Below, in pieces: positions 2,924-60,284 of a stretch of DNA of 64,000 nt. A program made the position numbers and the translations under genes. The stretch comes from Owenia fusiformis. Its lineage: Eukaryota > Annelida > Polychaeta > Sabellida > Oweniidae. The stretch spans positions 13,344,931 to 13,408,930 of the forward strand of contig CAIIXF020000003.1 in assembly GCA_903813345.2 (NCBI GenBank). Direction: 5' to 3'. The notes beneath the pieces are model-generated. The model was not told the DNA's origin. It did no database searches and was given only the letters and a program-made list of their open reading frames with translations. Position 1 is the stretch's first letter. Each line of letters begins with the position of its first letter.

Positions 2924-5900
2924 TCAAGGTGCTTGCTCATATTTTTCCATATCAGGCACGATATTTTCAACCTTCCAGCATTCATAATGATGTTCCTCGT
3001 GGTCGCTAATTGTGAATGCAACCCATTTGGATTTCACAGCATTTAGCATACTCCCGTCCTTCAAAATCAACTCCCCATTGTCAAGGGACTTAATCGACTC
3101 AGAGATATCACCTAAAACCCAAAGTATTGAGTAATATCATCAAAAATACTTTAAATAGTCTCTATTTTGTATCCACTCTACGTTACGAGATAGATAAAAT
3201 AGATGTAAATCTAGTTAACAAAACCTTAACTCTCCGACTAAAATCTTATAAACACGATTTGTAAGTTAATTACTTGTACTTACCCATTATTCCACCTATT
3301 TCACCAAGTTTAGTGACGTCAGATACTTCAACGACGATATATGTGCGTGCGCATTTAAGCTTCACATGAAATCGCTCCACTGCAATCACAACTGTTTTTT
3401 CGTCTTCACTTATTCCATGCGCTGCCTAAAAAAATGCCACATTTTAAGCGCATGTTATTCACTGGTTATAAGTTTGATTTACTAACTATGTCATCACCAG
3501 GGGGTTACTTCAGTGAATTACAATTTAATTGAAAATCATTATTTTTTGTAGAAAAACAAACATACGTCTTTCGAACTTAACTAAACGTTAATCTAGTCTA
3601 GTGAAGGAGCGCCTATGTATAATTCATTAAGACAGAGTCAAACTTAGTATTATGTAAAGATACTACATTTAAAATGTCAACTAAAATAACGATATGCCAC
3701 TACACCGTTATATCAAAACATCCGTATTTGATATTAAAACTGCTTACGCTAATTTCGTCTCCTTTATTGGTGACTGTATACAGCAGACTACCATGTTCAT
3801 CCTTCGATGCACGAATAATTTCAAAGGCCGTTTCAACGGTAACAGCTTCTATCAATTTAGAATCAGATCCATCTGCTGTTGTAGTCAGGGTTATATCCAC
3901 GTCTATTGCTGTAATATCAGGTACAACATGAATGGCACATAGCTCACAGTGGCGATTCTATGGTGAACAGAGACAACTGTATGGTGCATATACAGGGCAT
4001 GAAAAAGGCAAGAAACTTCTGGATCGCCCTGTATGTATATCATAATCAAAAAATGCAACAAACCTTTATCTCGGAAAAGCACAAAACTAGTGATGACTAC
4101 ATAGTTTTCGTTCAATGTACCATGAAGCTACGTGCCTCATCTTTGCAATAGTATGTCATTCATTCACATGTGGTCATGGTTGGGTGAAAATCATTCGCAC
4201 AGTGGGTCAAAATATGCTCTGGACCAAGTTTCAGATATTGCAAAAATCAGAGCAAGGGTATGAATGGTATATAGTTCACAGTGACGATTCTATGATGAAT
4301 AGAGACTACTGTACGAGTGGTATGGTATATACATATATATATGGTATATACTCGTATGGTACATATACAAGGCGTAAAAAACGCAAGAAACTTCTGAATC
4401 GCCCTGTATATATTGCATATTAAAAAACGCAACAAGTAGTTATCTCGTTAAACTAGTGATGACTACGTCAATGTCATCCAATGAACCATAAAGCCACGCC
4501 TCTCCTCTTTACAATGATATGTCATTCATTCACATGTGGTCGTGGTTGGACGAAAATCATTTATTTTGCACAGTGGGCCAAAGTGGGCTCTGAACCAAGT
4601 TTCAGATATTGCAAAATTAGTCAAGGGCTAAGTGCTAGTGGGAGTTCTCCTGATCTGAATTGTTGTGAATTTTACAGTTTGAGCTACCTCGGGGAGATGT
4701 ACACCATTCCTCCACCAGATACTGCAAAGCTTCGAGAAAGAATCACCTGCTGCTGTTCTTCGCCTGATGTACCTGAACCAACAGATGGCTCAGAGCTGAG
4801 CCATGCATGGCGAGGAGAGATGAGCCAATCTATGTGCGCAAAGAAGGGGTGGCCATATGCTATGAAGGGGTATGGGGTGTAATCTTGCAAGAATATGAGT
4901 ATGAACACTTAACTGTTTATGTCACACCTGCCACACCTTCAACAAATAGCACATATCTTATGCCCCGTGCACTGATTTTCGCAATGTTTAAAACTTGGTC
5001 CCGCCTGGTTTTGTCCCCTTTTGCGAAACCACATTACAGTATTCGGCCAACCATGACTCCATGTGAATGAATGACATACATGTACCATTGGAAAGAGAAG
5101 ACACATGTCCTTAGCTTGTGGTACGTTGAATGAAATCAATGATGTTATAACTGGTCTTGTGCTTTCCCGATATATATAAGGTTTGTTGTGTTTTTGATAG
5201 GCACTGCACAAGGCAATCCAGAAGTAGCGAAAAATGTGTTGCCATTTAAATTCAGACTCGGTACAAGAGCTCCTGAGTTTATATCTCAAAAATAAAGCCT
5301 CTACTATAAAGAAACCCTTGCTTTGCACATTAAAATAAAAACGCAATCTGACTCCACAAGTCGTTAATACATACCAATGTTTGCTCCATTGAATAGGCCT
5401 ACTTTGTAGTTAGTATTTGAATATTATATTAATACGAGATAATTTCAACAAATTTTATTTCAGATTTCATTTTTAGGTCAATCGTAGTTGCAAATCAAGT
5501 CATACTAACGGATGTATTTATCTTTAAATCTGTCGATGTTGCTTTACTCGCGAATTAAAACCAGGGTCATTGACAAACCTACCAGGTTGTTTTACAGAAA
5601 GAAGTCGATATGTGAACGATCCCTTCCCCGAAATATCGTAACATAGGGTTTCGCCAGGGCCATCTTCACCGCCTGCTACCTTTTGCCAGATATGGGGATC
5701 ACCAAAAACTTAAATGAAAGAATATTACGTTTTTAATTGAGACTGAGCTTGTAAAAATGGTTTATTTATCTAATTAAGCATCTCATATACTCTCTTACAG
5801 GGTGGGTCAACGTGTTTTGATTGCCATAAGTTATTGTACGTTATTAATTGCAACACAGAAATATTGAAGCGTTTGGCTCACTCTGTATCTAAAATGTTTC

Positions 5901-8900
5901 AAAACGATCATAGTCAGTCATTATTTATTGGTTATATTATTTTGCTTTTCTGATACAGCTGTATTAAAATGATGATAGCTTTTGTGTTATATCATGTTAC
6001 GTCTCGTAATATTATTGTTCTACGTCGGTTATATGACATACATTATGGATTGGCTATGGTCACTGCTACCCACCTAGTTACACAGACGTATCGTCAGTGT
6101 ATCATGGCTGAACTACTCCCGGGATTTGAATTTGGTAAGATATTTTTATTTCTCGATTTACATCTACTTATAAGACACGATGTGGATTATAATTTGGCTC
6201 GAAGTTATGGGAGATAGTCTAGTTTGAGAATGTGTCGATGGTTTTAGGTTTGGTATGTTAACGAAGACGCATTTCACATATTTAGTCCCTCGCTTTTGTT
6301 ACACTGACGATCGGCATTAATATTCCCAATATTACACTGATATTGGTCGTTCGGCAGTGTAAAAAAAGCGAGGGACTAAATTGTGTCTTCGTTAACATAT
6401 AAAACCTAAAACCATCCACACATTCTCAAACTAGACTATCTTTCTTAACTTCGAGCCAAATCATTATCCTCAACGTGACTTATAAGTAGATGTAAATCGA
6501 GAAATAAAAAACCGAAACCTCGTCCCGGAAGTAGTTCCGCCATGATGCACTGACGATACGTCTGTGTAACTAGGTGGGTAGCAGTGATGGTTATTCGTAG
6601 ATTGTTTGTTTATACTTACTAACGTCATCATTACTCAGTCCATCATTGGTGTTACCTAAAAATATGAAACAAACCGCAAAAAGTTTTTTAGGTCTAAATC
6701 ATTTCATTATTATTTTATCTAAAGAATACATTTTGCGATAGTTAAAACGATTAAATCAATTCGTTCAGATCAAAAGGACCATTTACTATTCGCTAACAGG
6801 TATTTATGAAAAATTGTCAAACTGATATATCACCCTAACATAGCTAGACATATGAATTTAGAAATAAAATATTCATGAAGGCCAATCATGTTATACAGTT
6901 TTTCAAGGGATTTCTGAAGAAGATTCGATGTCTCTTCCCTATACTGGCATGTTAAATACAATTTTGAGGCGCCAATTTTTTGTCTCTCTGGACATCTCCA
7001 AAATCCCTAGTAATACATTTTCTCATTTAAGATGAATGACGTTTTGTGATATACCCTTGCACAGTACATGATGTGCACATTGGTCTAGACAGAACTTAGA
7101 TTGAGCTACAGGGATTTGAGAATGCTTCCTTTACTTTTAAGTAATTTTTTCAATTTTAGAATACTGAATCTGAAAAAATGATTAAATACTGAACGTTGTA
7201 TACACTTGATCTGTACGAGTCTCATGCAATATTAATAACAAACCTTTCAAATCATCATAAGTAGGTCCACAATTGATATTCGTATTCTCTTTTCTTTTGC
7301 AAATCTGTTTCCTCCTTATCGCAAGGCAATCCAATGGAGAGCGAATTGCCAATCTATTTTCCCGTTTTAGACAATAGAATGGGTAGAATATTTCGTTCTC
7401 TTTTAATTTGTTTGTATCTACTTGTTCGGTTTCCGAACAACCCATTGCAAACTGCAATGATATGAAGATATTCAAAATACAATACAGTAGTGAAACATAT
7501 ACACTGACATGCATAGGTTAGTTAACGGGAAGTTTTCATTGCATAGTATATCAAAGAATGCTAATAATGTTTAAATCTTATTTTTCAACATTTTGATACG
7601 CCAAAAATAATAGGCTTTGATAAGCAGCTCAAAGGGAAACTTCCGGTTGTCAAACTTATAGAGGGCGCTCTGGATTGTCATCCTCCGAACGCAGGTTCCA
7701 GACGTCATCCTTTAAGTTCTTTCCTTCTTCCATGAAAGAAGGAGGTACGAGTTCTGGAGGCCTGTGTTCGGAGGATGTGGATTGTAGTTTGCGAAACTAT
7801 ACCGTATACCTATATATCTAACCGAGCATTCGTTGCATCTTCCGTAGCTCTCCAAAGTATAAAAATAAATCTAATATACCACCGATACATCACCAACAGA
7901 TCACCAATACACAATGAAAAGTGATTTACTCATTCCAAGTAATGTGTAACTTGTGTACGTATTAAAACTGACGACATTCAACTAGTACATCGCTGATGGG
8001 TAAAAGGGTAAAAGGCTAAAAGCCCGGTAAAAGTAGGGTTCTCAGGTTGAGTGGGGTGTAATTTGTGTATTAACTTGATTTTATAAAATGGTGTATGAGT
8101 TGAATATCAAAATTGATCCTTGATTTAGAATGAGAAACCCCACTCTCTGATTGATTAATGATTTTATTTCATTTGCATGGTAATGTTTTCAACTGATATA
8201 TCGCCTGTTACGTCATTGGCAAAAAGTGGATTGTTAACAAATATCAACCCATTATAATTAGCAGGCTATTTTTCACTTGTGATGACGTCAGCTGTGGCAG
8301 TTATTTTGATTCCTTATACACAGTACAGCATTTAGTGATGCCTACCTTGTTTTTGGAGAAATTTGTTTTAGACTTTTTGCATGTATGACTCTCAAAAATG
8401 AAAGAATAAATATCGTTTAGCTTACAATAAGAACCCTCAGTCTTTAAAATATTAATACACATGTACATATATGGAGGATCTTAGACTCAGTAAAAAATAC
8501 CAGAACTCTGTCTGAATCAGAGTTACATTACACATAATATTGTTACCTTCCTTCTTCTGGCATCAGGATTACCGGGATCGCATACAATGAAAACGCAGTC
8601 TTTCATGGAAAGCATCATTGCACCAACCCGAGAGAAGCCAGGAGTGTCGCAATCTTAACAAGAAATTAAATTTTAATTTAAAAGTAAATAATGGTGTGCG
8701 AATATGCTCTTGAAAACGCCATTATTTGTCAAAACATGGCCATATTGTTTAAAGGAATTATTGATTGTATCCTGATAATTTACCTTGCGAAACCTATAAT
8801 CTGACTAACAGTTATAGTACATTTCAATAGGAAACCTGCAATGGGTAACTTCATTGTAAAGAATAACAGGGTCCCATTTGATGCAAGACAAGTTCATTTA

Positions 8901-9354
8901 TCAGTTTATGAAACTCCTTTTTTACAGGGTGTACAAAAGCGGCCAGGATTTAAAACATATAGAAATCATAGTAAACCTTTATGAGAAAGAATATAATTAT
9001 TTCTAACCGGGATTACGATCAGTTTATCTTTGAGCTGAGTCGTGAAAGTCTTATATTATTATTTAGAAAATATCAAGGTCACACACTATAATAACAGGTA
9101 AATCAAAGAAACTAATCCGTCAATTAGAAATCCTCTTCAAAGCTTTAGAAATGGCTAATTTAGAACACTGCAATAGTTCTAACAACGGACAACAACTATT
9201 TATGATAAGAAAATAATTTTACTTCATTCAATAAAACGCAAAAACTGAAATACTTACTGATGTCTTGCATCATTTCTGGACTTATATCCAAAACTTGCAT
9301 AAGCACACATTCAAACAGACTTAGCAAGAAAACCAATTGAATCATTCCCGTCAT
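2924..9354 (-). CDS. Gene A: short secreted 8-Cys / ITIH_C-like protein
   Basis: Eight exons, reading downwards: 9354-9258, 8653-8547, 7451-7244, 6655-6620, 5708-5583, 3908-3748, 3425-3284 and 3111-2924. They total 1065 nt (354 aa). All joins are GT-AG and in phase. Exon 1 encodes a hydrophobic signal peptide (MTGMIQLVFLLSLFECVLM). Exons 2-3 encode the 8-cysteine module (VVCDP-like IVCDPGNPD.RRRK; FYPFYC; DCLA; QIC; NCGPT). Exon 4 is a 12-residue acidic linker. Exons 5-8 encode the ITIH_C-like domain: FGDPHI and LCYDISGKG in exon 5, a beta-rich segment in exons 6-7 ending GGIMG, and a last exon ending near ECWKVEN before TGA. Two extra residues precede LCYD compared with paralogs B and C. The exon 3 donor (GTTTGT) is weak. 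The protein has no TSP1 repeats, VIT or VWA. It is likely the minimal family member; function unknown. Confidence 0.82.
3990..5240. repeat. Composite inverted/tandem repeat cluster in gene A intron
   Basis: Two diverged direct copies (about 3998-4260 and 4370-4620) share 'gcaagaaacttctggatcgc', 'atgtcattcattcacatg' and 'accaagtttcagatattgc'. A third copy lies inverted at about 4960-5240. This looks like a palindromic MITE-type element with an internal duplication. It sits in the intron between gene A exons 5 and 6. ORFs inside it are repeat-derived. Terminal duplications were not resolved. Confidence 0.6.
6056..6591. mobile_element. Long-palindrome MITE, copy 1
   Basis: The element (6061-6586, 526 bp) is one near-perfect hairpin. 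It begins CACTGCTACCCACCTA and ends with its reverse complement, with arms of about 260 bp meeting near 6325. It is flanked by a 5-bp duplication ATGGT (6056-6060 and 6587-6591). It lies in gene A intron 4, only 28 bp from the exon 4 splice donor. A second full copy is at 28825-29363. No transposase is present. Confidence 0.85.
7679..7777. repeat. Short imperfect hairpin repeat
   Basis: The ends CATCCTCCGAACGCAGG and its diverged reverse complement (at about 7752-7777) enclose about 50 bp. The hairpin lies in gene A intron 2 and is probably a small MITE. Confidence 0.5.
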
Positions 9355-10289: not shown

Positions 10290-13200
10290 TCAGACTTTAT
10301 ATTTATTTATGTCAATGATATCGCCGTTTACATTCCAGCAAGAAAAAGTGACATCATTGGCTTCTCCATTGCCGTGAACGAATCTTTTCTTCAGAGCAAC
10401 ATTAAGGGTCTTCCCATTCCGAAGTTTCAGCATGCCATCTGTTATTGAGACAACTGAATGCATTACATCACCTGAAGCAGAATAAACTCAATGTATGATT
10501 AGGCTGATTTTGTCTCGTAACAAGCAAAGTGACATCTTGTAACCATTACTCATTTGATACTATACTAATAATAATATATCTTGTATAATTATATTACATA
10601 AATCGAGTCAACTTACTATAAGGTATTCATTTACGAATGCCGAAATACCACTAAAGTCATTTTAATACCCATGTACATATTGCAAAGCAGTAATTTTAAA
10701 CATTGAAAATTAATAAATACCCATTATTCCCCCAGCCACTCCATCGATATTATGTAGCTCTGTGATTTTCAACAGTATATGCGTTCGCTTCCCCACCAAT
10801 TCTACTTTAGATTTTCCAATTTGGACAGTTATGACCTTCTCATCTTTACTTGTTAAGATTGACACCTGTAAGGATTATAGATTACATGCAGACATTTGTC
10901 ACATTTTTTTTACCTGGATTAGAATTTGGGGATATTTCCTTATGCCTAGTTGTGTGACATTTTCCAAATGAAATAAATTCCTTACTTACGTATATATAGT
11001 TAATAAATATAATTATGATTTAACTGATTTTACTGGACGAAAGATAAAATTTTCCATCGTCTAATGTGACCGACATCCACAATTTGACCTTACATCAGTT
11101 TTAACAGACATTCTGTTAGATTTGTACACCAAGTGGCCGCGTTTCACACTGTCTAGACCAACGTCTATATCACTGGAGTTAGTCCGTATGGCTACAGATT
11201 TGACAAGATTCGCCTTTCCCCTTCCATAACTTCCTAACTTGATATCAAGCTCTGCCGCTGGTAATAAATATAAGATAAACCTATTATTGGTGAGCCAAAA
11301 AGGTGGCTTAAACAAATCTTAATAACTCAGTCATTCAGTATGGGTTCTAAGTCATACTAGTATTTTAGCAAGATTAAACCTTGTCCATTGTTCTTTCATT
11401 CTACTAAGTTTTGTTGGTCCATACCAAATGGTCTGTTTTATGGCCATTATACGAAACATGCTCCAAATGCCAAAATATACCAAAATCACCTAATATGAAC
11501 CCCCAGAATTTTGTGCTTCGAAAGATAGTGTGTATGTCAACAACCCTAGAAGCATCAGTAATTGAAACAAGAGATTAGAAGGAGAATAAGCGCCATTTCA
11601 CAAGATATCTGTGAATGTGTACAGTAGTCAGAAATATTCACTCCATACGTTCATGTTTGCCTCCAAAGACACAATCGGCATTTGTAAAATGGCTATAAAA
11701 TCTTGACCATTTAAAATAGACCAATAAAACTTATTTGAATGAAAGAACATTGAACATGGTTCAATTGTGACAAATATGGATTAAACCTAAACTGAATGAC
11801 TGGGTTATAAAAGATTTGTTTGGTTGCCTTTTCTCCTCATCGTGTATTAGATAATCATTAGAAATATATCTGTCTGCCTATTGGATTTAAATTATTTAAA
11901 CATATACAAATTAATTGCAAAAAGCTACGAGACAATTGAAGTTGTAAACAAATTGAAAATATATCGTAATAAACAACAAAAATACGCTTAAAACTGTACA
12001 CAAATCAAATCAGTATACAAAAGCTAGTAACAAAACAATAGTCCCATCTTCTCGATCCCAAGGCGTACATGTATATTATTTTCTTCACTTAACAAGCACG
12101 TCCGAAAGGGAGGGGCGATGGGGGCGACCGTCTCTTACATTTCTTTTAGATTTGTATTTAATGATGCAAATATAGGGTCAAAACTCCCTTGGGAAATCCT
12201 TTGGAAGAGCCTGTATAATACGTTATAATCTAATACTTACAAGAAGCAGATTCTGTTAACAGTCTATATGTTGCTAATGCCTCACCCTTGACATCATAAC
12301 ATATTGTGTGAGTACCACCAATGACCATTTGAGCTATATGAGGGTCACCAAAAACTGAAAAACATTTCCAACAGAGTTATCTATTTTATCACTTGCATGT
12401 CTAACGCTCTATTACACGAATCAATGAACTTTGGCTTCAGTTATGCTCTTCATAACATGACTTCAATTATTACATAGTTTCTTAATTATTTAAAAGCATT
12501 CAAGAGTTATATATGGGCAACGCTTCTTCAATACGTTGTGCTTATTTGAAAAAATCCCCATAACGATTTTTAAAGGGAACACTGAATTTCCCAATATGGT
12601 AACTAATTTTCTGGTTTATTCTTTCCCTTCCAAGGAAAGGAAATGGGAAACATTAAATTCCCGAATATGTCAACTTTCTGGCTTATTCTTTCACTCCAGG
12701 GAAAAGTAACGCAAGTGTAATAACAATCATTTACAATATCTAAATTTTATGGTCTTGAAACACCCAATGTTATTTGTTCTAATTTGAAGAAACAAGATTT
12801 CAAGATTTCAAATTCAAGAGAATAGCCTTCTCGACTCCTCACAAAATCCCGTGCTAAAGACTTTTACAAATGGTGTATAATTATGAATATATAAAATAGA
12901 ATAATTAAAGGGCTTGACTTTAAAAGTAAAAATATACGTTTAAAATAGCGATTTTATAATACTGGTCAGCAACAAAATGGAACGCAGTAATCAATACGGT
13001 TATCTTTTACCTTGGTCCTGTTGTAATGGCGTATCCTTAACCTTAACGTCTTGTCTAGGAGCTGAAAACATATACGTTTGTAAATGAATTAAGAGTTTTA
13101 TTTTAAACCTTTTTTTATGCAATGTGTATCGCAATACAACGCATGTCAAGAGCGGGGTTATTTCTACTGGCTCTTGTATATTTTTGAATAATATAGTTTC

Positions 13201-49000: not shown

Positions 49001-52000
49001 TATAGACTACGGCCGTATTAAACTTTTTAAATGTATTTTTTTCAGAAAGGCAATGGAGTTCCATATGACTCACTTGAGCATGGCTGTGTGTTACATGGTT
49101 CAACCTGTGATTCCTCTAGTTGCTCTACTCCCTCAACAGTTAAACACGGAGAGCCTCCATATTGTGGCTCTGGGTTGTTACATAATCGAACACGTTCTTG
49201 GGTACCACCGCCACATTCAAGTGAACATGCACTATAATTGGAAAACTCTCCCCATCCGCCATCAACTGGAAATATACATTTAGTATGCCAGAGTTTTCTA
49301 AATGGCAGCTTCAATAATCAAAAAGAAATTACCATAATTGACTTCAGCCTTATTTTACGTTTTAACTGTCTTTTAAAAGAAAGGCAATGACGGTTCAATA
49401 TGACTTACTTGCGCATGGCTGTGTGTTACATGGTTCAACCTGTGATTCCTCGAGTTGCTCTACTCCCTCAACAGTTAGACACTGAGAGCCTCCATATTGT
49501 GGCTCTGGGTTGTTACATAACCGAACACGCTCTTTGGTACCTCCCCCACATTCGAGTGAACATGCACTATAATTGGAAAACTCTCCCCATCCGCCATCAA
49601 CTGTAAATAAACACAGAGTATGCCAGAGTTTCCTAAATGGCAGCTTCAATTATGAAAAAATAACTACCATTATAGAATACGGCCGTATTAAACTTTTTAA
49701 ATGTCTTTTTTTCAGAAAGGCAATGGGAGTTCCATATGACTCACTTGAGCATGGCTGTGTGTTACATGGTTCAACCTGTGATTCCTCGAGTTGCTCTACT
49801 CCCTCAACAGTTAGACACTGAGACCCTCCATATTGTGGCTCTGGGTTGTTACATAATCGAACACGCTCTCGTGTACCTCCGCCACATTCAAGTGAACATG
49901 CACTATAATTGGAAAACTCTCCCCATCCGCCATCAACTGGAAATATATATTGAGTATGCCAGAGTTTCCTAAATGGCAGCTTCAATAATGAAACAATAAC
50001 TACCATTATCGACTACGGCCGTATTCAACTCTTTAAATGTCTTATTCAGAAAGGCAATGGTAGTTCCATGACTTACTTGCGCATGGCTGTGTGTTACATG
50101 GTTCAACCTGTGATTCCTCGAGTTGCTCTACTCCCTCAACAGTTAAACACTGAGAGCCTCCATATTGTGGCTCTGGGTTGTTACATAATCGAACACGCTC
50201 TCGTGTACCTCCGCTACACTCAAGTGAACATGCACTATAATTGGAAAACTCTCCCCATCCGCCATCAACTGTAAATATACATTGAATATGCCAGAGTTTC
50301 CTAAATGGCAGCTTCAATAATGAAAAAAAATAACTACCATTATAGACTACGGCCGTATTAAACTTTTTAAATGTCTTTTTCAGAAAGGCAATGGTAGTTC
50401 CATGACTTACTTGCGCATGGCTGTGTGTTACATGGTTCAACCTGTGATTCCTCGAGTTGCTGTACTCCCTCAACAGTTAGACACTGATAGCCTCCATATT
50501 GTGGCTCTGGGTTGTTACATAATCGAACACGCTCTCGTGTACCTCCGCCACATTCAAGTGAACATGCACCATAATTGGAAAACTCTCCCCATCCGCCATC
50601 AACTGGAAATAAACATTTAGTATGCCAGAGTTTTCTAAATGGCAGCTTCAATAATGAAAAAGAAATTACAATAATTGACTCCAGCCTTATTTTACGTTTT
50701 AACTGTCTTTCAAAAGAAAGGCAATGACGGTTCAATATGACTTACTTGCGCATGGCTGTGTATTACATGGTTCAACCTGTGATTCCTCCAGTTGCTCTAC
50801 TCCCTCAACAGTTAGACACTGAGACCCTCCATATTGTGGCTCTGGGTTGTTACATAATCGAACACGTTCTTGTGTACCTCCGCCACATTCAAGTGAACAT
50901 GCACTATAATTGGAAAACTCTCCCCATCCGCCATCAACTGTAAATAAACACAGAGTATGCCAGAGTTTCCTAAATGGCAGCTTCAATTCTCGAAATCGCT
51001 GTTCCCTCTTCAAAAGAGGAGACGCGAAAATCTTTCCTTATAAGGTCAAAATATTTCCCATGATGCAGTTCGCGGAGGAACAAATTTATACTTCCTTGTT
51101 TTCCCTCATAGGTTTAACATGGGGATTTTAACACCTATTTTTCAAACAATATATTCGTTCATATTCCCGTACGAGGGTACAGAAAAAATTATTAGAAACG
51201 ATTGATCTTTTATTAATCTTAATATAACAGCTATTTTTTCATTGTATTGATTCATAGCGTGGTGAAAACGATGATTGAAAAGTGAGAAAATATTCCGGAA
51301 GAGAAGGTCACATCATCAGTTGACTAGTCGCCATATTGGAAAAAACATTTCCATTCGGCTTTCAATACTTTCATGCCAATCTTACCGCACTACAAACTGC
51401 ATCATCGATGCAACAACGGAATAAAAGTATTCATCATCAAATTACATCATAGAGTTACGTTGAAAACCAACAAATAACTGAGCAGTAGACCAAAGAAGAA
51501 GCGTCACTATTATCTAGGTCACTCTGTTCAGTGGTCCGAAAGCAAATCTATAGTACTCGTTTCCGAATTTTGTTGTTCATTGTACAATCTTTTATTGATT
51601 AAACTCGGTATACAGACTATTAAAGCAATGACAAAGAAGAATACTTCCGATGTTGTCATTGTTTTATTTAGCGTGCGGGTGTAAAAACAAAATTGCGTAA
51701 TTAGTTTGATATAGAACTTTCGTGTCACGCAAAAAGCTACGCGTAATGCATAATGAGAAAATATAAGCCAATCAAATTTTGTCCTTTTTGAGTGCTTTTT
51801 CAGTGCATATTTGCGAACGTTCTGATTCAAAGAGCGAATCGCGAAAGGGAGAATTATGAAAAAATAACTACCATTATCGACCTCGGCCGTATTCAACTTT
51901 TTAAATGTCTTATTCAGAAAGGCAATGTGGGTTCCATTGACTTACTTGGGCATGGCTGTGTGTTACATGGTTCAACCTGTGATTCCTCGAGTTGCTCTAC

Positions 52001-55000
52001 TCCCTCAACAGTTAGACACTCAGAGCCTCCATATTGTGGCTCTGGGTTGTTACATAATCGAACACGTTCTTGTGTACCTCCGCCACATTCAAGTGAACAT
52101 GCACTATAATTGGAAAACTCTCCCCATCCGCCATCAACTGTAAATAAACACAGAGTATGCCAGAGTTTCCTAAATGGCAGCTTCAATTATGAAAAAATAA
52201 CTACCATTATAGACTACGGCCGTATTAAACTTTTTAAATGTCTTTTTTTCAGAAAGGCAATGGGAGTTCCATGACTTACTTGGGCATGGTTGTGTATTAC
52301 ATGGTTCAACCTGTGATTCCTCGAGTTGCTCTACTCCCTCAACAGTTAGACACTGAGACCCTCCATATTGTGGCTCTGGGTTGTTACATAATCGAACACG
52401 TTCTTGTGTACCTCCGCCACATTCAAGTGAACATGCACTATAATTGGAAAACTCTCTCCATCCGCCATCAACTGTAAATAAACACAGAGTATGCCAGAGT
52501 TTCCTAAATGGCAGCTTCAATTATGAAAAAATAACTACCATTATAGACTACGGCCGTATTAAACTTTTTAAATGTCTTTTTTTCAGAAAGGCAATGGGAG
52601 TTCCATATGACTCACTTGAGCATGGCTGTGTGTTACATGGTTCAACCTGTGATTCCTCGAGTTGCTCTACTCCCTCAACAGTTCGACACTGAGACCCTCC
52701 ATATTGTGGCTCTGGGTTGTTACATAATCGAACACGTTCTTGTGTACCTCCGCCACATTCAAGTGAACATGCACTATAATTGGAAAACTCTCCCCATCCG
52801 CCATCAACTGTAAATAAACACCGAGTATGCCAGAGTTTCCTAAATGGCAGCTTCAATTATGAAAAAATAACTACCATTATCGACCTCGGCCGTATTCAAC
52901 TTTTTACATGTCTTATTCAGAAAGGCAATGTGGGTTCCATTGACTTACTTGGGCATGGTTGTGTGTTACATGGTTCAACCTGTGATTCCTCGAGTTGCTC
53001 TACTCCCTCAACAGTTAAACACTGAGAGCCTCCATATTGTGGCTCTGGGTTGTTACATAATCGAACACGTTCCCGTGTACCTCCGCCACATTCAAGTGAA
53101 CATGCGCTATAATTGGAAAACTCTCCCCATCCTCCATCAACTGAAAATATAAATGGTGCTTGCCAGAATTAACCGAAATGGCAGCCGCAAACATGAAAAA
53201 ATAACCGTGAAATATTAAGTTTTGAATTTTTATTCATGTTAGCTTGTGAATGTCGTAAAAATGAACGGGGACGTTGGCTATGTGAGTTAATTATAGCGAA
53301 CGCAAGTTAAAAGACCATCAAATATTTGAAAATACCATCAAATACGGCAGAAATACAAAAAATGTTTTGATTTGCTAAATATTTAGAATGATCTTCAAGA
53401 TATTGCAGGTAGTAGTATTTTTCTTGCAAATGTGGTCAATTCAGTGTAAAATCAATCCTTTTCTGTCCATAAAAACGTAAGATATACGTTTGCATTACAT
53501 TAATTCATCAACTGCATCATCTGTAGATATCCTAGCTTGCAATTTAGTTGATTATTGCCGATTTTAATATTTTTGGCATTTTTTCTCTGAAAAACAACGA
53601 GAGTTTCGCATGACTTACTTGCGCAGGGTTGTGTGTTACATGGTTCAATCTGTGATTCCTCGAGTTGCTCTACTCCCTCAACAGTTAGACACTGAGAGCC
53701 TCCATATTGTGGCTCTGGATTGTTACATAATCGAACACGTTCTTTGGTACCTCCCCCACATTCGAGTGAACATGTGCTATAATTTGTAAAAGCCCCCCAT
53801 CCCCCATTAACTGAAAATAGACATTGCACATGCAGGATTATTCTTAATATTGAAAATAGTGATTCCCACGTTATTTCCAGCTTCATTTTTGTGTTCATAT
53901 GAATTTGTGAATGACATGAAAAGAGGAATGAATGGAGGTAGTAGAGATGAGAGTGAGTTGCTTTAACACTTTAAAGTTTTAAATAAAATATATATCAAAG
54001 GACGTATTGATAGGCCTAGCATTATTAAAATATTTTTAGGTCTCTGTTTTGTCCTATTGCACAATATACAAACCGAGTATACTTGTTTCTAATTTTAGTG
54101 GCAGAACTCGGCGATTTGAAAATGCTTATTTAGAAAATGCACTTCTTTGAAACGTTGGTTTTTATTTCGTACACAGCGTCTGGGTTTGAATTCACTTTGA
54201 GTATTTTGTTTCCAGTCATATTTATCTAGTCCACCCATCGCTTTTTTAATTTGCATTTCAAATGCAAACACATGGGTGATATAGTGGAATCCTGCAATTT
54301 ACTCGTGTAACGAATGGATGTATTTCTTTATTTCTCATGTCTTTCTTACAGAAGTAATGAGAGTTCCATATGACTTACTTGGACATGGCTGTGTGTTACA
54401 TGGTTCAATCTGTGATTCCTCGAGTTGCTCTACTCCCTCAACAGTTAGACACTGAGAGCCTCCATATTGTGGCTCTGGGTTGTTACATAATCGAACACGT
54501 TCTTGGGTACCTCCGCCACATTCAAGTGAACATGCACTATAATTGGAAAACTCTCCCCATCCGCCATCAACTGGAAATATATATTGAGTATGCCAGAGTT
54601 TCCTAAATGGCAGCTTCAATAATGAAAAAATAACTACCATCATCGACCTCGGCCGTATTCAACTCTTTAAATGTATTTTCCAGAAAGGCAATGGTAGTTC
54701 CATGACTTACTTGGGCATGGCTGTGTGTTACATGGTTCAACCTGTGATTCTTCTAGTTGCTCTACTCCCCCTGCAGTTACACACTGAGAGCCTCCATATT
54801 GTGGCTCTGGGTTGTTACATAATCGAACACGTTCTTGGGTACCACCGCCGCATTCAAGTGAACATGCACCATATTCAGAAAAATCTCCCCATCCTCCATT
54901 TACTGAAAATGTATAATTGTGTTTGCTAGTATGCAATACCAAGACACGGTATTGAGATTTTATTAGAATGGAAAGATCTCTCTATTTCATGTAATGTTGC

Positions 55001-58000
55001 CGTTGCTTATTCGCGTTTGGAATTTATCCCAATTTACGCAGAATTCCGGAATCTCAATGTGGTCAAAACTGTTTGTATTAATGAATATTTATCACGAAGT
55101 GTTAGCGCAACACTAAGCTAAATACTTTTGTAATTAACAGCATTATCATTCCCCTCGATTAATTCATCATGACCCAGTGATTTTAAAGATTACAGGTACA
55201 ATAGCATATTCTGCAATTTCTCGAATATATCTTTATTTAATATCTTAGAACAATCAATTTGCATACTTTAGATGAATAATACTTTTTGTAATTATCATAG
55301 TTTTGTTATTGTGAAAGTTTTAAAACTGGTTTCCGAATTCCAAATAGTACAGATACAAGGGCAAAGACAGACATCCAGCAAGTGAGGTTTCTGCTTCGCC
55401 AATCTTTTACAAACATGAATTAAGTTTAAATTGAAACTGAAAACTGCATTCCAATTTACCGAGCTGTGGATCGGCCGTTTATTTAGCTCGCATATTTTAG
55501 ATTATGGCTTCTTTATTTGACACATTCGATTTCAGAAACCAGGGATATACTCACTTGAACATTCATGCCGGTTGCATGTACCAGTAGAGGTCTCATTCAT
55601 CTTTCTTTTTCCATCGCTCCCTATGCACATCAATCCACCATGTTCCGGTGTAGGGTTATCACAGTATTTGATCGTTTGTGTTATTCCTCCGCCGCATGGT
55701 TCGGAACACGCACCGATGGGTCGATATGAGCCCCATCCGCCATCTAAAGTAATACGAAATATTATAAAATACTGCGATATTAATGATGCTGATGATGGTA
55801 CAACCAAACACTCTATTCTTAAACCCGATCAAAATTCATTGCTTTGGGATACTGGTCAGTGGTCAAACTTCTATTATGATGCTTAACTCAACTTAAAATG
55901 AAAACGATCATCTACATGGCACTCCTGATGAGGGTGCACCATAAAACTCCTGACCACAACCAGTTACTCAGCTTATTCTTTTAGAATACACTGGGGGTCA
56001 TTAACAGAAACTCAGTAAAGTTACGACTTTGTAAATCAATTGCTGCAACCATGTGTACATAATGACATCACAGTTGGAGAACAATGAATTTATAACGAAT
56101 TCTTAACTTAAAAAGTTTTTGATAATGGCCCCCGGGACAATAACATCGGCTCATAGTCAATTTTGACATTGAAGGTCTAAAATGCTGATACTAAATAGAC
56201 TCTTGATACCCCGATCATGTTGATAACTTTGTTTAAAACTGACCACTTCAAGCAAAATCTTTCGGGTAGATGTGGGCCCACCAAGCTGCAGTGCAGGACA
56301 AAATTAATTGAGACGCTGGATTGTTGAGGTCAGTATTTGGCTTGCTGTACACATTTTCAAATAATGTATTGCTCATATTAGCATGGGTATCTACTTTTCG
56401 AGTACAAAATTAGATTTTCTGAAAAGTATGACGCGATCCTTTATTTGACTTACTTAATGGCCTGCATCTTACGTTTGCAACATCTTCACAGATCTGCGCG
56501 CGCATATAAGTCATACAATCGATTGGATGTAGTTTGAGCTTCGCACATTTCCCTGGGTAATACACTGTAGGTGAATCCGTTCTATTCAGTTTACGAATGT
56601 TTATCTGTTCGCCTATTTTGCATCCACCGGTAAACTAAAAATCAATGTCTTACTTTTGCGTACACGTGCATATAACAAAAAATAGAGCCAACAAAAAGTT
56701 CTAAAAAGCAAGCCCAATGTCCTGTTTAAGAACCCATTCTTACTATTGAAAATGGATTCTAGCAATCCTGTCTCACGTGAATCAACTTGTTGAGATTCGA
56801 TCAACTTAATTTCTTCTGAGAAAATGAGGCTTACAGCAAGAGTGTATTGGCTTCATGGGCCCGGGGATATAGACATTTTACTTAAAGGCTGCATGTCATA
56901 ATGTCTTCATACACAAACTCCTCATTATCTCAGAAGAATTCAAGTTGATCGAGTCCCAACAAGTAGATTCGTATGAGAGATTATTGGTAGAATCCATTTC
57001 AATAGTACGAATAGGAGTTCTTTTGAAAATTATGGTTAGCGCCAAAACATTCTCAAACATGTACGCATGTTTACAAATATTTCATGAGAACAAAAATGTT
57101 AACGTCTTCTTTTTATGGGAGTTTTGATTTTCGAAAAAACATACGTTACAGCACGCCCAACCATCGACAACGTACAGTGACAAAATATACGGGTGTACAC
57201 TTAAGCTGTTTGAAACAAAAATGGTGATTTAGGTTTTAAAAGATTCCTTTAAAGAATATGATGAAGTATTTCATGTTTAATTCCATGCGCATTCTCTTGG
57301 CAAGACTTTTAACTTTCTAATCACGTTAACAGATTTTTAAGCAGAGCACGAGTTTTGTCTTGGTAATTCCACCCACGTCCATGTGAATATAACCAACATT
57401 TTCCAACCGGTCAATTATGTGGGTGGAAACACCTAAAAAAAGATTCACTGCTCGAGGATCTTTCAACGTAATTAGAAAGTTAAGTCTTGCTAGAAGCATG
57501 CACATGAAATTAAACATGAAATACTCCATCATATTCCTTAGATAAATCTATTAAAACCTCATCACATCACCATTTTTGCTTCAAACATGACAACGTACAG
57601 CTGAAGTGTACAGCCATATATTTTGTCACTGAACGTTGTCGATGGTTATGCGTGTACAAGGCATATGGGAATCCACTGGTTACGTCGGGAAGATTGGAAA
57701 TCATTGTAACGAGCATAAATACTAACATACTAGACCCTCTCTTAGCTTGTATTCGCGAATGCAACTCTCAGCTGTCGGCTTCCGAATTAAACTACTATTT
57801 TATGTGCAACTCGTTTAAATATAAATAGTTCCTGTCACAATTCCATTCATATTTAAATGAATTGGTCATAAAATACTGGTTAATCTGGTAGCCGCTTGTT
57901 GCATTCGCGAATATAAGTTTGACGAGTAAAAGAAAAAAGAAATATGTTGACACGGATGCATGCTCACACCGGAATAGCCTGACAACGTTACGTTAAAGTC

Positions 58001-60284
58001 AGATACCGTTGTCACAAATGGCGGACATAACCGTCGCTTCAACTCTTTAATCACTTGGTCCTCATTTCATGGGATTTTATCGTCTCTAATTTTGTGCATA
58101 TATTAAGCTTTTGTGATGATGCATCATATGAAATCCCAATTTAGATCAAATCGGGTCGTGAATCGCCACAATATAGCGTCTTCGATATCGTCAATGACAA
58201 CGGAAAATGAATTTGAATTTGAGACTTTATTATAGTAACTGCACAATGAGTAAAAAGACACTTTGATTGATTGTTGTTCCAAAGGAATTTAGTCTAGGTG
58301 CTGTATTAAACGGTTATGTCCGCCATTTGTGACCACGGTATCTGACTTTACCGTTGTCGGGCTATTCCGGTGTGATGCTGTAGAATGTTCCAATTCAATT
58401 CAATTTTAATATATCTATGTAGTAAATCATAGCAGATAGGCCTATAAAATCTCCTCTTGATCTGACCTTACCTTTCTTCGTCTTACGTCTGGATTTGTCG
58501 GGTCACACACGACATACATACAAAGTATTTCAAGATGGTTGGGGTCGTCGGATATCATTGTAAACCCCCTTGAGTTTTTACAATCTGAAGCATATATTGC
58601 ATATTTCATATGATATATATACCGCGTGACACAAAAATATGACACCCACCCACATAATATTTTATGACTTTTTTCAACTGTTCTTTTTCGCACATTTAAA
58701 CTACACTCCATTTTGCAACTCCCCAAGAAGTTTCAGATGACTAGCTCACTTAGATGCACATTTATGAGCGTTACAAAATGTGTCTTCTATTCCTTTGCTG
58801 GCACAGCTGGATCTTACACAAAAAATGACACCCACCTTTTGTAACATAATTTTGGAAATCAGTTATAATGATTTTATCAATGACAACAAAATTATTTTGT
58901 GTTTAATTGAATGGACTTCATTTCCCTGGAAGTACAAGCCGAAATCATTAGTATTTACAAAGTTGTTACAAAAGCTGGGTGACACTTTGTGTAGAATCCA
59001 TATATGTCTGCAAAGGAATGGACGACATTTAGAGCAAATTTGAAACGCTCATAAAATTTGAGCTACACATCTGAAGTTTCTTGAGGTGCTTTCGTATTAT
59101 GTCTACTTTAAATGTGCCAAAGGACAAGTCTATATGTTAATAGACAAACAAGTTATGCGACGTATTAAGGTGGGTGTCATTTTTATGTCACCCTGTACCA
59201 TGACGTTGTAAGTGTATATATCGATCCAAATATTACATGTATGTCAACCTTGAACGTTAATGGGATTAACATTAAGACTTGAGATTAGTTGAGAGTAGGC
59301 TTCGAAAAAGATTGCAATTTTAAAACATGTTTTATTGCCATCATTCATTCTCTTTTTGTTGTAGTTAAAGATTTCTAGTTTTTCATGATAATTTCAAGGT
59401 ATCTGCCCTTTCTGGATCTCAAATCTTCTGCTTCCATATTTGATCTGACAGGAAATCAAGTATGTTCAAAATAATAAATCAATAGTTATGTGACATAGGC
59501 GAAGTCATGGGATGGAGGTGCATCCCCATTACTTTTGAAAATAAATAACATAGATAACCATTAAATAGACGTAGAAAAGAGCTTTAAAATGTTCTTTATT
59601 TGAAACTTCTAGCTCAATTTCGAAGGAAGTTGCATCAATCTTTGTAAAATTCAATTTTTTGGCTCGTTTAAGTTATGTCACAATTGCAACCCCTTTGACT
59701 CTGACTACGCCCCTGTTCGATCCATATACAGATATACCATCCATGTAAAGCGTCTATTATACTGAATAAATAAATTTATATTAATTATGATAATTCAAAA
59801 TAATAGAAAATAATTATAGTTCATGACCATTGACATATACAATAACGCCAATTTGAGCTTTGGCATTGTAATATGAAGATTCAAAACACTGAATCTGTTT
59901 TCTGCTCTTCCAACGAGTCATTGGGCTATAACCACATAAATTGATTTTTCTAAAATGTGCTGTTTTTGAGGTTATTTCTTAGAAAGGGCCTAAATGTATT
60001 GCATACACATTGTGTCAGCAAAAATAGAGTAATGTCAAAGGTTGTTTCTTTCAAAAAGTAAATTAAAATAGAGTAATAAGTCACCAGTACAATAATATAG
60101 AATAAATAAGTCACCAGTACAATAAAATAGAATAGATAAGTCACCAGTACAATAAAAATAGACTAAACTACTCACCAGCCTCGGATGCATCCACTTTATA
60201 CTCAGCTTCCTCAAGGGGAGCCGTAGCTCCTTGATCTACCAGGGAGAAAGCGCCCAGGCAGAACGCAAATACCAACCAGTTCAT
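19058..60284 (-). CDS. Gene C: giant secreted 8-Cys / TSP1x25 / ITIH_C-like protein
   Basis: Forty exons totalling 6165 nt (2054 aa). Order: 60284-60176 (signal peptide, [16 protein letters not shown]); 58584-58472 and 56634-56454 (8-Cys module: [32 protein letters not shown]); 25 TSP1 exons from 55743 down to 41988; eight linker exons from 40824 down to 36405; and the ITIH_C-like exons 36196-36083, 20523-20360, 19814-19670 and 19245-19058. Exon 1 ends in phase 1, exon 2 in phase 0, exon 3 in phase 1, all TSP1 and linker exons are 1-1, and the terminal domain runs 1-1, 1-0, 0-1, 1-stop, exactly as in genes A and B. Motifs in the last domain include [23 protein letters not shown] and LSCWRIKG before DYEV-TAA. 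No frame break was found, despite several transposons in introns. Likely a secreted matrix protein. ITIH_C assignment is by motif order, not a profile search. Confidence 0.83.
19351..19515. mobile_element. 165-bp palindromic MITE (Tc1/mariner type)
   Basis: The terminal inverted repeats start CAGAGTGTCC / CAGGGTGTCC and continue through 'aaaaaacaggac'. The arms extend to 'aaagttgaataactcrgtcaa'. TA flanks both ends (19349-19350 and 19516-19517). It lies in the last intron of gene C. The CAGGGTGT ends resemble those of the larger element at 39338-40394. Confidence 0.8.
20840..21801 (+). repeat. 5' LTR
   Basis: 962 bp, beginning TGTAAATAGGG and ending CCACCACTACA (TG...CA). It is almost identical to 34225-35185, with a single length difference noticed. 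It includes an AATAAA (near 21724) and a TGTCTGTCTATG-type run near its end. Confidence 0.93.
21804..21840 (+). promoter_or_regulatory. Putative primer-binding site, duplicated
   Basis: Two bases after the LTR comes TGGTACTGCGGGTATAC, in the place and with the TGG start expected of a tRNA primer-binding site. The 20-bp block aaatggtactgcgggtatac is perfectly repeated in tandem (21801-21820 and 21821-21840). The matching tRNA was not identified. Confidence 0.5.
22401..22704 (+). repeat. Repeated TGACATCTATTGGT motif in retrotransposon leader
   Basis: Seven to eight copies of TG(A/C)CATCTATTGGT or close variants occur between PBS and gag. They start near 22404, 22439, 22466, 22529, 22563, 22589, 22622 and 22691, spaced roughly 25-70 bp. 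This is the same position as the protein-binding cluster (insulator) of Drosophila gypsy, but the motif is different. Function is inferred only from clustering. Confidence 0.55.
22829..23953 (+). CDS. gag: Gypsy gag polyprotein
   Basis: 374 codons from the first ATG; a more probable start is Met17 ([13 protein letters not shown], at 22877), which gives a conventional basic/acidic N-terminus. The central region ([19 protein letters not shown] ... [18 protein letters not shown]) has the capsid-like pattern of the retrotransposon gag family. A predicted coiled coil is followed by an Arg/Gln/Asn-rich tail ([13 protein letters not shown]). No CCHC zinc knuckle is seen; the RG-rich tail may bind RNA instead. 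The frame is intact. It ends in ATGA, overlapping the start of the next ORF. Confidence 0.88.
   Translation: MFDILSRFFPEAIQITMPPKKASPKEEEEDLEQEKYYDPTEFENMKEELLRLRKLSQRFSQFMEIEKKPTQPVQKIKFPKRPKLGNFSGKPETTDIWDWVEDAELAIKKLDDDEEKVDFLLEHLEAPARREVHYIEPLTTRNIFRTLKEVYGREFSASQTFRKFYTTAQKKDQSVKSFTQELLRLMDIIKQHRTVPNENELLCHQLTENLNDPHLRWELKKYEDDHPNPSFQKLRHIALEYEDNENRKNEESEHHSRKEKSYSVQEKDPVFTQITSQLDEFKSAITSMQDNMKTMTEKINRLEKGQQMIMEQNANNQFQYENRNDYLYPQRSHRGQFNGRRPQRGQFRSRQTTQSNQRQFNLNAHDLGNARVPS
23950..24251 (+). pseudogene. pro: Gypsy protease segment, truncated by insertion
   Basis: This frame is -1 relative to gag and overlaps its stop at ATGA, so expression would use a -1 frameshift or reinitiation. The aspartic-protease signature [11 protein letters not shown] is present. 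The frame continues to 24251, where the 5.86-kb DNA element begins; the few codons after that (to 24279) belong to the insertion. The protease C-terminal part and linker resume at 30114. Confidence 0.85.
25184..25782 (-). pseudogene. Two-exon ORF candidate inside the 5.86-kb element
   Basis: An ATG at 25782 opens a 76-nt exon ([20 protein letters not shown]...) ending at a GTAAGT donor after 25707. A TTTTCAG acceptor precedes 25434, and the phases agree (1 to 1). The second exon reads [20 protein letters not shown]... to a TGA at 25319-25321, giving 63 aa. The same frame then stays open ([16 protein letters not shown]...) to a TAA at 25184, suggesting that the TGA is a disabling mutation in a longer protein. 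The family is not recognised; it may be a remnant of the element's own gene. Confidence 0.3.
27112..27124. repeat. Poly-C/G tract
   Basis: A homopolymer run of C, matched by a poly-G run at 29502-29512 elsewhere in the same inserted element. Such runs are prone to assembly error. Confidence 0.6.
28820..29368. mobile_element. Long-palindrome MITE, copy 2
   Basis: The hairpin (28825-29363, 539 bp) has the same ends (CACTGCTACCCACCTA) and internal blocks as the copy at 6061-6586. It is flanked by a 5-bp ACCAT duplication (28820-28824 and 29364-29368). Its arms are closer to identical than in copy 1, so it is probably younger. It is nested inside the 5.86-kb element. Confidence 0.87.
30114..33807 (+). 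pseudogene. pol: Gypsy pol: RT, RNase H, integrase (broken)
   Basis: Frame 1 resumes after the insertion at 30114 and is open to a TGA at 30955-30957, at the start of the reverse transcriptase. It is then open again, in the same frame, to 33807. In the 936-codon downstream ORF, RT motifs [13 protein letters not shown] and YLDD lie near residues 68-98, RNase H (TDAS) near 253, the integrase HHCC finger near 548-590, and the integrase D,D,E residues near 615, 673 and 710. A basic tail ends RRYNLRKRK. With an insertion and a stop, no full Pol can be made. No env-like ORF follows. Confidence 0.92.
34225..35185 (+). repeat. 3' LTR
   Basis: 961 bp, nearly identical to 20840-21801, with the same TG...CA ends and followed by the TTAA duplication. 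No purine-rich tract lies right at its 5' edge; the nearest (ggggaggaa, 34078-34086) is about 140 bp upstream. Confidence 0.93.
36083..36196 (-). other. Gene C exon with the GDPH motif (ITIH_C-like domain start)
   Basis: This 38-codon, phase 1-1 exon reads [14 protein letters not shown]...[10 protein letters not shown]...YRLLTE. Equivalent exons are 12354-12241 (gene B) and 5708-5583 (gene A). In inter-alpha-inhibitor heavy chains the Asp-Pro bond of the same DPH motif is cut and the new C-terminal Asp is esterified to a glycosaminoglycan. That knowledge belongs to the vertebrate family; here only the motif and its context are seen. The following intron is 15.6 kb because of the nested transposons. 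Confidence 0.7.
39338..40394 (+). mobile_element. Decayed Tc1/mariner-type element, 1057 bp
   Basis: Terminal inverted repeats CAGGGTGTTCCAAAAGTAAC are flanked by TA (39336-39337 and 40395-40396). Blocks further in, such as 'ccagcaccagtcctg' at the right end, extend the repeats. A broken plus-strand transposase remains at about 39760-40090: [11 protein letters not shown], then [13 protein letters not shown], then a C-terminal stretch ending at TAG, with stops between. It lies in the gene C intron between linker exons 1 and 2. Confidence 0.75.
40434..40600. repeat. Interspersed repeat, copy 2
   Basis: Diverged match to 1-175 in the same orientation ('ccaaatttcacgttg', 'caacgggaattattatactcg', 'tttctgaagaagatgatg'). 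Non-coding. Confidence 0.6.
40825..41987. other. Intron with an unexplained plus-strand ORF
   Basis: This is the intron between the last TSP1 exon and the first linker exon. A 99-codon plus-strand ORF at 40855-41154 has a protein-like stretch ([20 protein letters not shown], then [16 protein letters not shown]). I do not recognise it; it may be a transposon fragment. Nothing else was seen. Confidence 0.3.
42710..43806 (+). mobile_element. Mariner transposon, internally deleted
   Basis: The element is 42712-43804, 1093 bp, flanked by TA. The terminal inverted repeats are essentially perfect over about 38 bp (CGAGGGAAGATCCAAAA-TTTCCGGCC), differing by one length change. It lies in the gene C intron between TSP1 repeats 23 and 24, in the opposite orientation to the gene. 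Fresh ends and an almost open transposase show it is recent. Confidence 0.93.
42848..43738 (+). pseudogene. Mariner transposase, missing third catalytic acid
   Basis: A 296-codon open frame; the true start is probably Met15 ([14 protein letters not shown], at 42890). It has a helix-turn-helix N-terminus ([22 protein letters not shown]), a second HTH ([14 protein letters not shown]), [11 protein letters not shown], and catalytic Asp172 in VTCDETWV and Asp266 in QQDNAP. Right after QQDNAP the protein jumps to [26 protein letters not shown], the normal C-terminal end. The PYSPDLAPSDYH-type segment with the third catalytic residue is absent. The deletion keeps the frame. The product could fold and bind ends but not cut DNA. 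Confidence 0.9.
44650..44720. repeat. Interspersed repeat, copy 1 of pair
   Basis: Shares 'gcattaaca', 'caaaatg-cac', 'tgccat', 'acgccgaac-ccaac' and the following A-rich end with 63888-63985, in the same orientation. It lies in the intron between TSP1 exons 22 and 21. Confidence 0.5.
47266..47304 (-). pseudogene. Relict 3' end of a TSP1 exon
   Basis: The forward text 'tgcttgtgcatggttgtgtgatacagggttcaaac' matches the 3' end (with donor) of the TSP1 exons. The donor has lost its GT (now GCACGT), and the rest of the exon is gone. It is followed by intron-type sequence leading into the intact exon at 47376-47567. Confidence 0.7.
50985..51855. mobile_element. 863-bp insertion with AATT duplication in a TSP1 intron
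   Basis: The neighbouring introns read 'ggcagcttcaattatgaaaaa' without interruption. Here the same text is split after 'cttcaatt' and resumes at 51852 with 'aattatgaaaaa', giving an AATT duplication (50985-50988 and 51852-51855) around 50989-51851. The ends are imperfect inverted repeats (CTCGAAATCGCTGTTCCCTC against CTCCCTTTCGCGATTCGCTC). No transposase was recognised. It is probably a non-autonomous DNA transposon. Confidence 0.75.
57748..57905. repeat. Palindromic MITE, third copy
   Basis: Same family as 15272-15600: 'attcgcgaatgcaact', 'tgtcggctt', 'actactattttat', 'catatttaaatga'. It lies in gene C intron 2. Confidence 0.6.
58622..59195. mobile_element. 574-bp MITE with TA flanks
   Basis: Ends CCGCGTGACACAAAAATATG and, inverted, CATTTTTATGTCACCCTG, then CACCCACC on both arms, flanked by TA (58620-58621 and 59196-59197). 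An internal repeat of the arm core (acacaaaaaatgacacccacc) is near 58816. It sits about 37 bp upstream of the acceptor of gene C exon 2. Confidence 0.7.
60063..60175. repeat. 30-bp minisatellite next to the gene C exon 1 donor
   Basis: Three copies of 'ataagtcaccagtacaataa...atagaat', followed by 'actactcaccag', which is the true splice donor of exon 1 in the same register. The array appears to have grown from the donor region. The repeat copies read CTGGTGACTTA on the minus strand, so they are poorer donors than the real CTG|GTGAG. Confidence 0.7.

Follow-up and report, generated by a model that had tools for sequence, protein, structure and literature searches.

We found that three neighbouring minus-strand genes of the annelid Owenia fusiformis probably encode secreted matrix or mucus proteins in which a divergent, self-cleaving C-terminal domain of the inter-alpha-trypsin inhibitor heavy chain (ITIH) type, freed from VIT and VWA domains, has been placed on new heads. 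The genes, A (60284–19058), B (17259–10290) and C (9354–2924), lie in a 64,000-nucleotide stretch of contig C3 (13,344,931–13,408,930, hereafter the window) of a 498 Mb genome in 525 contigs. Each comprises a signal peptide exon, a two-exon head with eight cysteines (8-Cys), optional phase 1-1 inserts and a four-exon C-terminal domain, here called the tail. A reading made earlier from the sequence alone had placed three genes with the same phases between 2924 and 60284, and our GT/AG models agreed with it, as A starts at 60284 and C stops at 2924. A paralogue outside the window, D (public protein P0003, contig C10), shows the same head-to-tail order, and the layout is thus not due to chance.

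Based on profile comparison and intron positions, the tail was shown to be homologous to the ITIH C-terminal domain (ITI_HC_C, PF06668), though the tails of the family fall short of the 27-bit Pfam gathering cut-off. As in ITIH heavy chains, it starts at DPH, contains [IL]C[YF][DN], G[IL][ML]G and a CW near the end, and is encoded by four exons with two matching introns; the tails of A and B also share the two cysteines. The GDPHI at the tail start is identical in A, B, C and D, where the ITIH alignment has DPHF. A profile built from the four tails aligned with mammalian ITIH1/3 tails nearly end to end (187 columns, score 33.3), and none of 150 column shuffles scored as well; when the GDPH-LCFN block was kept, the best of 150 shuffles reached 31.1, and the reversed profile scored 20.2. 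In full-length ITIH, the best match of the tail profile was the C-terminal pro-domain (33.7 vs 19.0 for the next best).

The ITIH-like end claimed by the sequence-only reading was borne out by a comparison within Owenia, by two of three introns and by the genomic neighbourhood of GDPH exons. When an Owenia PF06668 gene above the Pfam cut-off (L034, C3:5.727 Mb) was added, the profile-profile probability was 91.5% (E 8.7e-7) over 145 columns that correspond to the first three tail exons, and L034 alone gave 91.3%. After gap filtering, the comparison with L034 added scored 50.9, whereas the best of 100 full shuffles reached 29.1 and the best of 100 that kept the first 30 columns reached 38.0. 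The first tail intron (phase 1, nine residues from a conserved Tyr, which is counted in) and the intron within G[IL][ML]G (phase 1) occur both in A–D and in L034, L035 (C8) and L036 (C1), with splice sites in the latter three read from sequence only; L035 and L036 are below the cut-off. The middle tail intron was phase 0 in A–D, phase 1 in L034 and absent in L035. A genome search with B returned 43 matches, of which 18 fell within the window, 8 were exons from other 8-Cys modules and 17 were GDPH exons. A total of 7 of these 17 GDPH-exon matches lay ≤6 kb upstream, on the same strand, of one of the 21 PF06668 places in the genome (14 of which were flagged above the cut-off), cf. ~0.002 expected under uniform placement.

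By their domain content, the family proteins are not ITIH heavy chains, because they have no VIT and no VWA domain: neither is present in the exact exon chain of gene B, nor did Pfam report either in C or in a shortened A. The family also differs from heavy chains in its sub-threshold Pfam score, the phase of its middle tail intron and a tail of ~200 rather than ~240 residues, and where heavy chains have VIT and VWA it has the 8-Cys head, joined in A by TSP1 repeats.

The alternative that the tail is a VWD domain stood at the level of predicted fold but not by sequence. A profile of VWF D1–D3 scored 13.7 against the tail, with 21 of 100 shuffles as good, whereas ITIH scored 32.7 with 0 of 100, and a VWF-type assignment was rejected on this basis. 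Unlike mucins, VWF, FCGBP and RGM, the Owenia tail had no match to Pfam VWD, CGLCG, C8 or TIL, and none of the 17 GDPH-exon matches fell at any of the 149 PF00094 places in the genome (lists compared by eye). In the structure model the tail is predicted, with modest confidence, to adopt a VWD fold, a beta-sandwich that begins at GDPH; fold matches (Foldseek) were FCGBP, MUC2, MUC5AC, VWF and RGMB, and the position of GDPH was as in RGMB, with Pro216 of the model paired with RGMB residue 169. AlphaFold2 on P0001, the public protein of gene B, alone brought no gain (predicted local distance difference test, pLDDT, 32.7). The ITIH4 entry 9c4f of the PDB was not among the fold matches listed, an absence that is no evidence either way.

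A number of observations weigh against an ITIH-type, VWD-like tail. A plain Pfam search gave no PF06668, VIT, VWA or VWD match at E ≤ 10 for any of B, C and shortened A. A mammalian-only ITIH profile aligned at the same place, but its profile-profile probability was low (local mode, 10–38%; a single global run, 47.9%). When the GDPH exon was removed, 8 of 150 shuffles were as good as the last three tail exons alone against mammalian ITIH. The 145-column alignment ends before the last tail exon, and the start of the third exon of L034 was picked by hand. Only 2 of the 7 PF06668 neighbours of GDPH exons (C3:5726688 and C3:5709050) were above the cut-off, and the seven are not independent, as they include near-copies (three on C12, two on C3, and those on C8 and C1 alike). 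The number of tail cysteines also varied, with two in A and B and three in C and D, those of D being placed elsewhere. Finally, the structure model had a mean pLDDT of 46.5, with values of 75–85 only in about residues 271–330, and no Foldseek match reached E 0.001.

Many GDPH-bearing VWD domains cut between Asp and Pro, and in ITIH3, 5 and 6 GDPH lies within a predicted VWD-like domain (PMC10880436). Heavy chains have a 239/244-residue C-terminal pro-domain that is removed upon their ester linkage to chondroitin sulfate (PMC7170535). From these two precedents, self-cleavage of the Owenia tail between GD and PH is likely, and it is possible that the head becomes covalently attached to a matrix glycan. 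The folded tail would break its own Asp-Pro bond in GDPH, as many GDPH-containing VWD domains do, so that the head, in A together with its TSP1 rod, would end in that Asp, while the cut tail would either stay bound as a second chain or leave as in ITIH heavy chains. The tube and mucus of the worm would be an obvious setting.

How the cut would be used can be read in two ways. In the mode of inter-alpha-inhibitor, the cut would go hand in hand with an ester transfer that moves the new C-terminal Asp onto a polysaccharide of the tube or mucus, thereby fixing the 8-Cys head (and the TSP1 rod) covalently, with the tail being shed. The kinship of the tail to ITIH and not to VWF-type VWD (32.7 vs 13.7, as above) and the ester link that accompanies pro-domain removal in heavy chains (PMC7170535) both fit such a transfer, but the plasma acceptor is the chondroitin chain of bikunin and the plasma donor has VIT and VWA, and the GDPH cut of VWD domains is described as a hydrolysis (PMC10880436); we hold it to be rather unlikely. 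Alternatively, a hydrolytic Asp-Pro cut may only stabilise the domain, the pieces remaining together as a two-chain protein, for which the chances are appreciable but somewhat below even. Stabilisation of VWD by autocatalytic Asp-Pro cleavage is the subject of PMC10880436, and the fold matches to FCGBP, MUC2, MUC5AC, VWF and RGMB also speak for it. It is countered by the lack of a VWF-type sequence signal, by the 17 GDPH-exon matches that avoid all 149 PF00094 places, and by the tail cysteines of A and B, both of which lie after GDPH, leaving no evident disulfide to bridge the cut.

The head was defined by eight cysteines that form invariant columns in A, B, C and D, by the motifs VVCDP.NPD and CGPT..DLK, and by its two exons; the sequence-only reading had likewise seen an 8-cysteine module in two exons. 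Pfam gave no match to it, and PDB sequence searches with the family returned one chance-level row each. Two protein database searches (652 and 4,773 candidates of 0.55–1.75 times the query length that shared short exact words with it) gave three Owenia proteins only at E ≤ 10 and no relatives outside Owenia. These results are consistent with the earlier claim of a new cysteine-rich head, and on sequence grounds the 8-Cys head may be a new domain; pLDDT over it was about 33–51 in the structure model.

There are at least seven 8-Cys modules in the Owenia genome. In addition to the window these lie on C10 (the gene of D, with a complete tail), in tandem at C4:2.17 Mb (two modules) and at C2:29.49 Mb (one module). 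Within 100 kb on each side of the window, matches to further family members were at chance level only (best E 0.045). No tail was found for the C4 modules within the 17.5 kb examined. The C2 head is followed downstream by what is likely the final tail exon (...SCWHASDTAQLVNVADFLIV), which matched D with E 0.009, compared with E 0.59 for the best chance match across 200 kb of flanking sequence. Between the head and this exon lies a weak, uncertain candidate for tail exon 1 (E 1.8), in which NDPHS replaces GDPHI. Such a replacement, if real, would suit a purely structural role, in which GDPH is a conserved turn that stays uncut. GDPHI is, however, constant in A–D despite an identity of only 33–48% between the whole A, C and D proteins and B, and we judge an uncut turn rather unlikely.

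A different cysteine-rich stretch (DCLSDEQC...CGTNADC...QVCGDPHIKQ) precedes, in the same frame, the PF06668-like, sub-threshold domains of L035 (259–520, plus strand, C8:29.66 Mb) and L036 (minus strand, C1:61.16 Mb), so that here, too, an ITIH-type tail follows a cysteine-rich head.

Exons of A, B and C were placed by GT/AG splice sites, phase and conservation among the paralogues. Phases were common to all three genes: 0 to 1, 1 to 0 and 0 to 1 for exons 1–3, 1 to 1 for inserts, and 1 to 1, 1 to 0, 0 to 1 and 1 to stop for the tail exons, with GT/AG splice sites. The inserts of A are 25 TSP1 and 8 linker exons, and those of B are 7 linker exons. Positions in the window are as follows.

Gene A, minus strand:
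60176..60284, exon 1, signal peptide (hydrophobicity and phase-1 donor only)
58472..58584, exon 2, first half of the 8-Cys head (C1–C3)
56454..56634, exon 3, second half of the 8-Cys head (C4–C8)
41988..55743, TSP1 array, 25 phase 1-1 exons
TSP1 exons 1–7: 55743-55555, 54902-54711, 54570-54379, 53810-53619, 53140-52949, 52807-52616, 52471-52280
TSP1 exons 8–14: 52137-51946, 50937-50746, 50602-50411, 50268-50077, 49936-49745, 49600-49409, 49265-49074
TSP1 exons 15–20: 48928-48737, 48124-47933, 47567-47376, 46789-46598, 46310-46119, 45539-45348
TSP1 exons 21–25: 45202-45011, 44467-44276, 44127-43936, 42650-42459, 42176-41988
36405..40824, linker, 8 phase 1-1 exons (exact match to P0002)
Linker exons: 40824-40732, 39174-39151, 38871-38845, 38479-38456, 38216-38184, 37368-37342, 37115-37083, 36500-36405
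36083..36196, tail exon 1, YGDPHI...ICYDV (in P0002 match)
20360..20523, tail exon 2 (in P0002 match)
19670..19814, tail exon 3, GGIMG at end (in P0002 match)
19058..19245, tail exon 4, SCW...DDYEV and stop (in P0002 match)

Gene B, minus strand:
17172..17259, exon 1, signal peptide (exact in P0001)
16256..16362, exon 2, first half of the 8-Cys head (P0001 match)
15765..15957, exon 3, second half of the 8-Cys head (P0001 match)
13011..15205, linker, 7 phase 1-1 microexons of 24–51 nt (PPRRRRP spans a junction)
Linker microexons: 15205-15167, 14588-14547, 14347-14324, 13823-13791, 13511-13488, 13351-13319, 13061-13011 (P0001 match)
12241..12354, tail exon 1, FGDPHIAQMVIGG...ICYDV (P0001 match)
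11094..11257, tail exon 2 (P0001 match)
10721..10865, tail exon 3, GGIMG at end (P0001 match)
10290..10471, tail exon 4, SCWNVNGDIIDINKYKV and stop (P0001 match)

Gene C, minus strand:
9258..9354, exon 1, signal peptide MTGMIQLVFLLSLFECVLM
8547..8653, exon 2, first half of the 8-Cys head
7244..7451, exon 3, second half of the 8-Cys head
6620..6655, tentative 36-nt linker microexon, NTNDGLSNDDV (splice-site pattern only, weak donor)
5583..5708, tail exon 1, FGDPHIWQKVAGG...LCYDI
3748..3908, tail exon 2
3284..3425, tail exon 3, GGIMG at end
2924..3111, tail exon 4, ECWKVENIVPDMEKYEQAP and stop

The 14 spliced exons of gene B were identical in every letter to the public Owenia protein P0001 (412 aa), and the 13 exons at the 3' end of gene A, from the last TSP1 repeat to the end, matched the public protein P0002 (record marked partial) exactly. 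It was this match that revealed the linker exons, 7 in B (24–51 nt) and 8 in A (24–96 nt), all of phase 1-1, giving gene A a total of 40 exons and ~2,054 residues (1,935 without the linker plus 119). The variable middle proposed by the sequence-only reading was thus found in A and B, where the linker exons are exact in the public proteins, but not in C: no exon of ≥15 residues was found between its exon 3 and the GDPH exon, and exon 3 is spliced straight to the GDPH exon in our model. The 36-nt candidate linker exon at 6655–6620 is only suggestive, judging from its splice-site pattern.

The public Owenia annotation was built with RNA-seq splice junctions, Mikado, Augustus and PASA (PMC9977687), and because it drew on such junctions, gene B and the 3' part of gene A are likely to be transcribed. 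We regard it as very improbable that the genes are artefacts, i.e., unrelated exons joined together, or pseudogenes. Gene C had no protein record among the matches of the two protein database searches and the records for A and D are marked partial, as an artefact might lead one to expect; against this, the 14 B exons give the public protein exactly, 24-nt microexons included, the annotation used splice junctions (PMC9977687), and D has the same head-to-tail order.

All 25 TSP1 repeats of gene A, the number claimed by the sequence-only reading, contain six cysteines, and Pfam TSP_1 (PF00090) matched with E 9.1e-15 in the shortened A, which carries 3 of the 25. Repeats 2–21 are an expanded set with 75–97% identity between neighbours, and two stretches of the array show recurring exon-plus-intron units of 334–335 bp. 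WxxW and CxxS/TC, the motifs of TSP1 repeats that carry sugars, were present in 4 (repeats 22–25) and 2 (repeats 24 and 25) of the 25, respectively. Secreted matrix proteins of the SCO-spondin type similarly combine a long run of TSP1 repeats with a VWD-like domain; in gene A, by contrast, an ITIH-type VWD-like domain stands at the C-terminus, and WxxW is missing from 21 and CxxS/TC from 23 of the 25 repeats. The linker of A (119 aa) is rich in Pro and acidic residues, some of its exons resemble duplicates of one another (e.g., RRPQSPLYDS), and its RRRR is assembled over an exon junction. A furin site at the RRRR of the A and B linkers was considered and rejected, as the motif is split between two exons, has at P1' a Pro, which suits furin poorly, and is absent from the C model and P0003. 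Being symmetrical, the phase 1-1 exons would allow TSP1 repeats and linker pieces to be gained or lost with the frame intact.

Introns of gene A also contained mobile elements. A long terminal repeat (LTR) retrotransposon occupies 20838–35185 (plus strand, opposite to the gene) between tail exons 1 and 2. Its 964-bp LTRs (20838–21801 and 34222–35185) are identical at 964 of 964 bases, and its insertion is probably very recent, judging by these repeats. It has a gag-like frame (22763–23953; PNMA, 2e-6) and a pol frame (30958–33807; reverse transcriptase, RNase H and integrase). A Mariner-type transposase frame lies at 42821–43738 (plus strand) between TSP1 exons 23 and 24 (Transposase_1, 5.1e-23; HTH_48). 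Diverged repeat copies at 6097–6634 and 28777–29416 (minus strand), with short stretches ~57–93% identical in translation, are probably an interspersed element.

No description of this layout was found in open-licence papers, a set without most subscription journals, consistent with the earlier statement that no such protein has been described. The family provides an 8-Cys domain with no Pfam or PDB match, and its 25 TSP1 exons and microexon linkers clearly exemplify exon shuffling in phase 1-1. The ITIH C-domain is known as the part that plasma heavy chains discard. Gene B, whose compact protein (412 aa) has no VIT or VWA, could show whether the tail alone suffices for Asp-Pro cleavage and glycan transfer. 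A bolder proposal, which we consider quite doubtful, is that in Owenia the ITIH C-domain acts as a portable, self-processing anchor that, once freed from VIT and VWA, was exon-shuffled behind various cysteine-rich heads, namely the 8-Cys head of A–D and the different one of L035 and L036, and fixes them covalently to matrix glycan. If this were true, the ITIH C-domain would be a general module for the ligation of proteins to polysaccharides.
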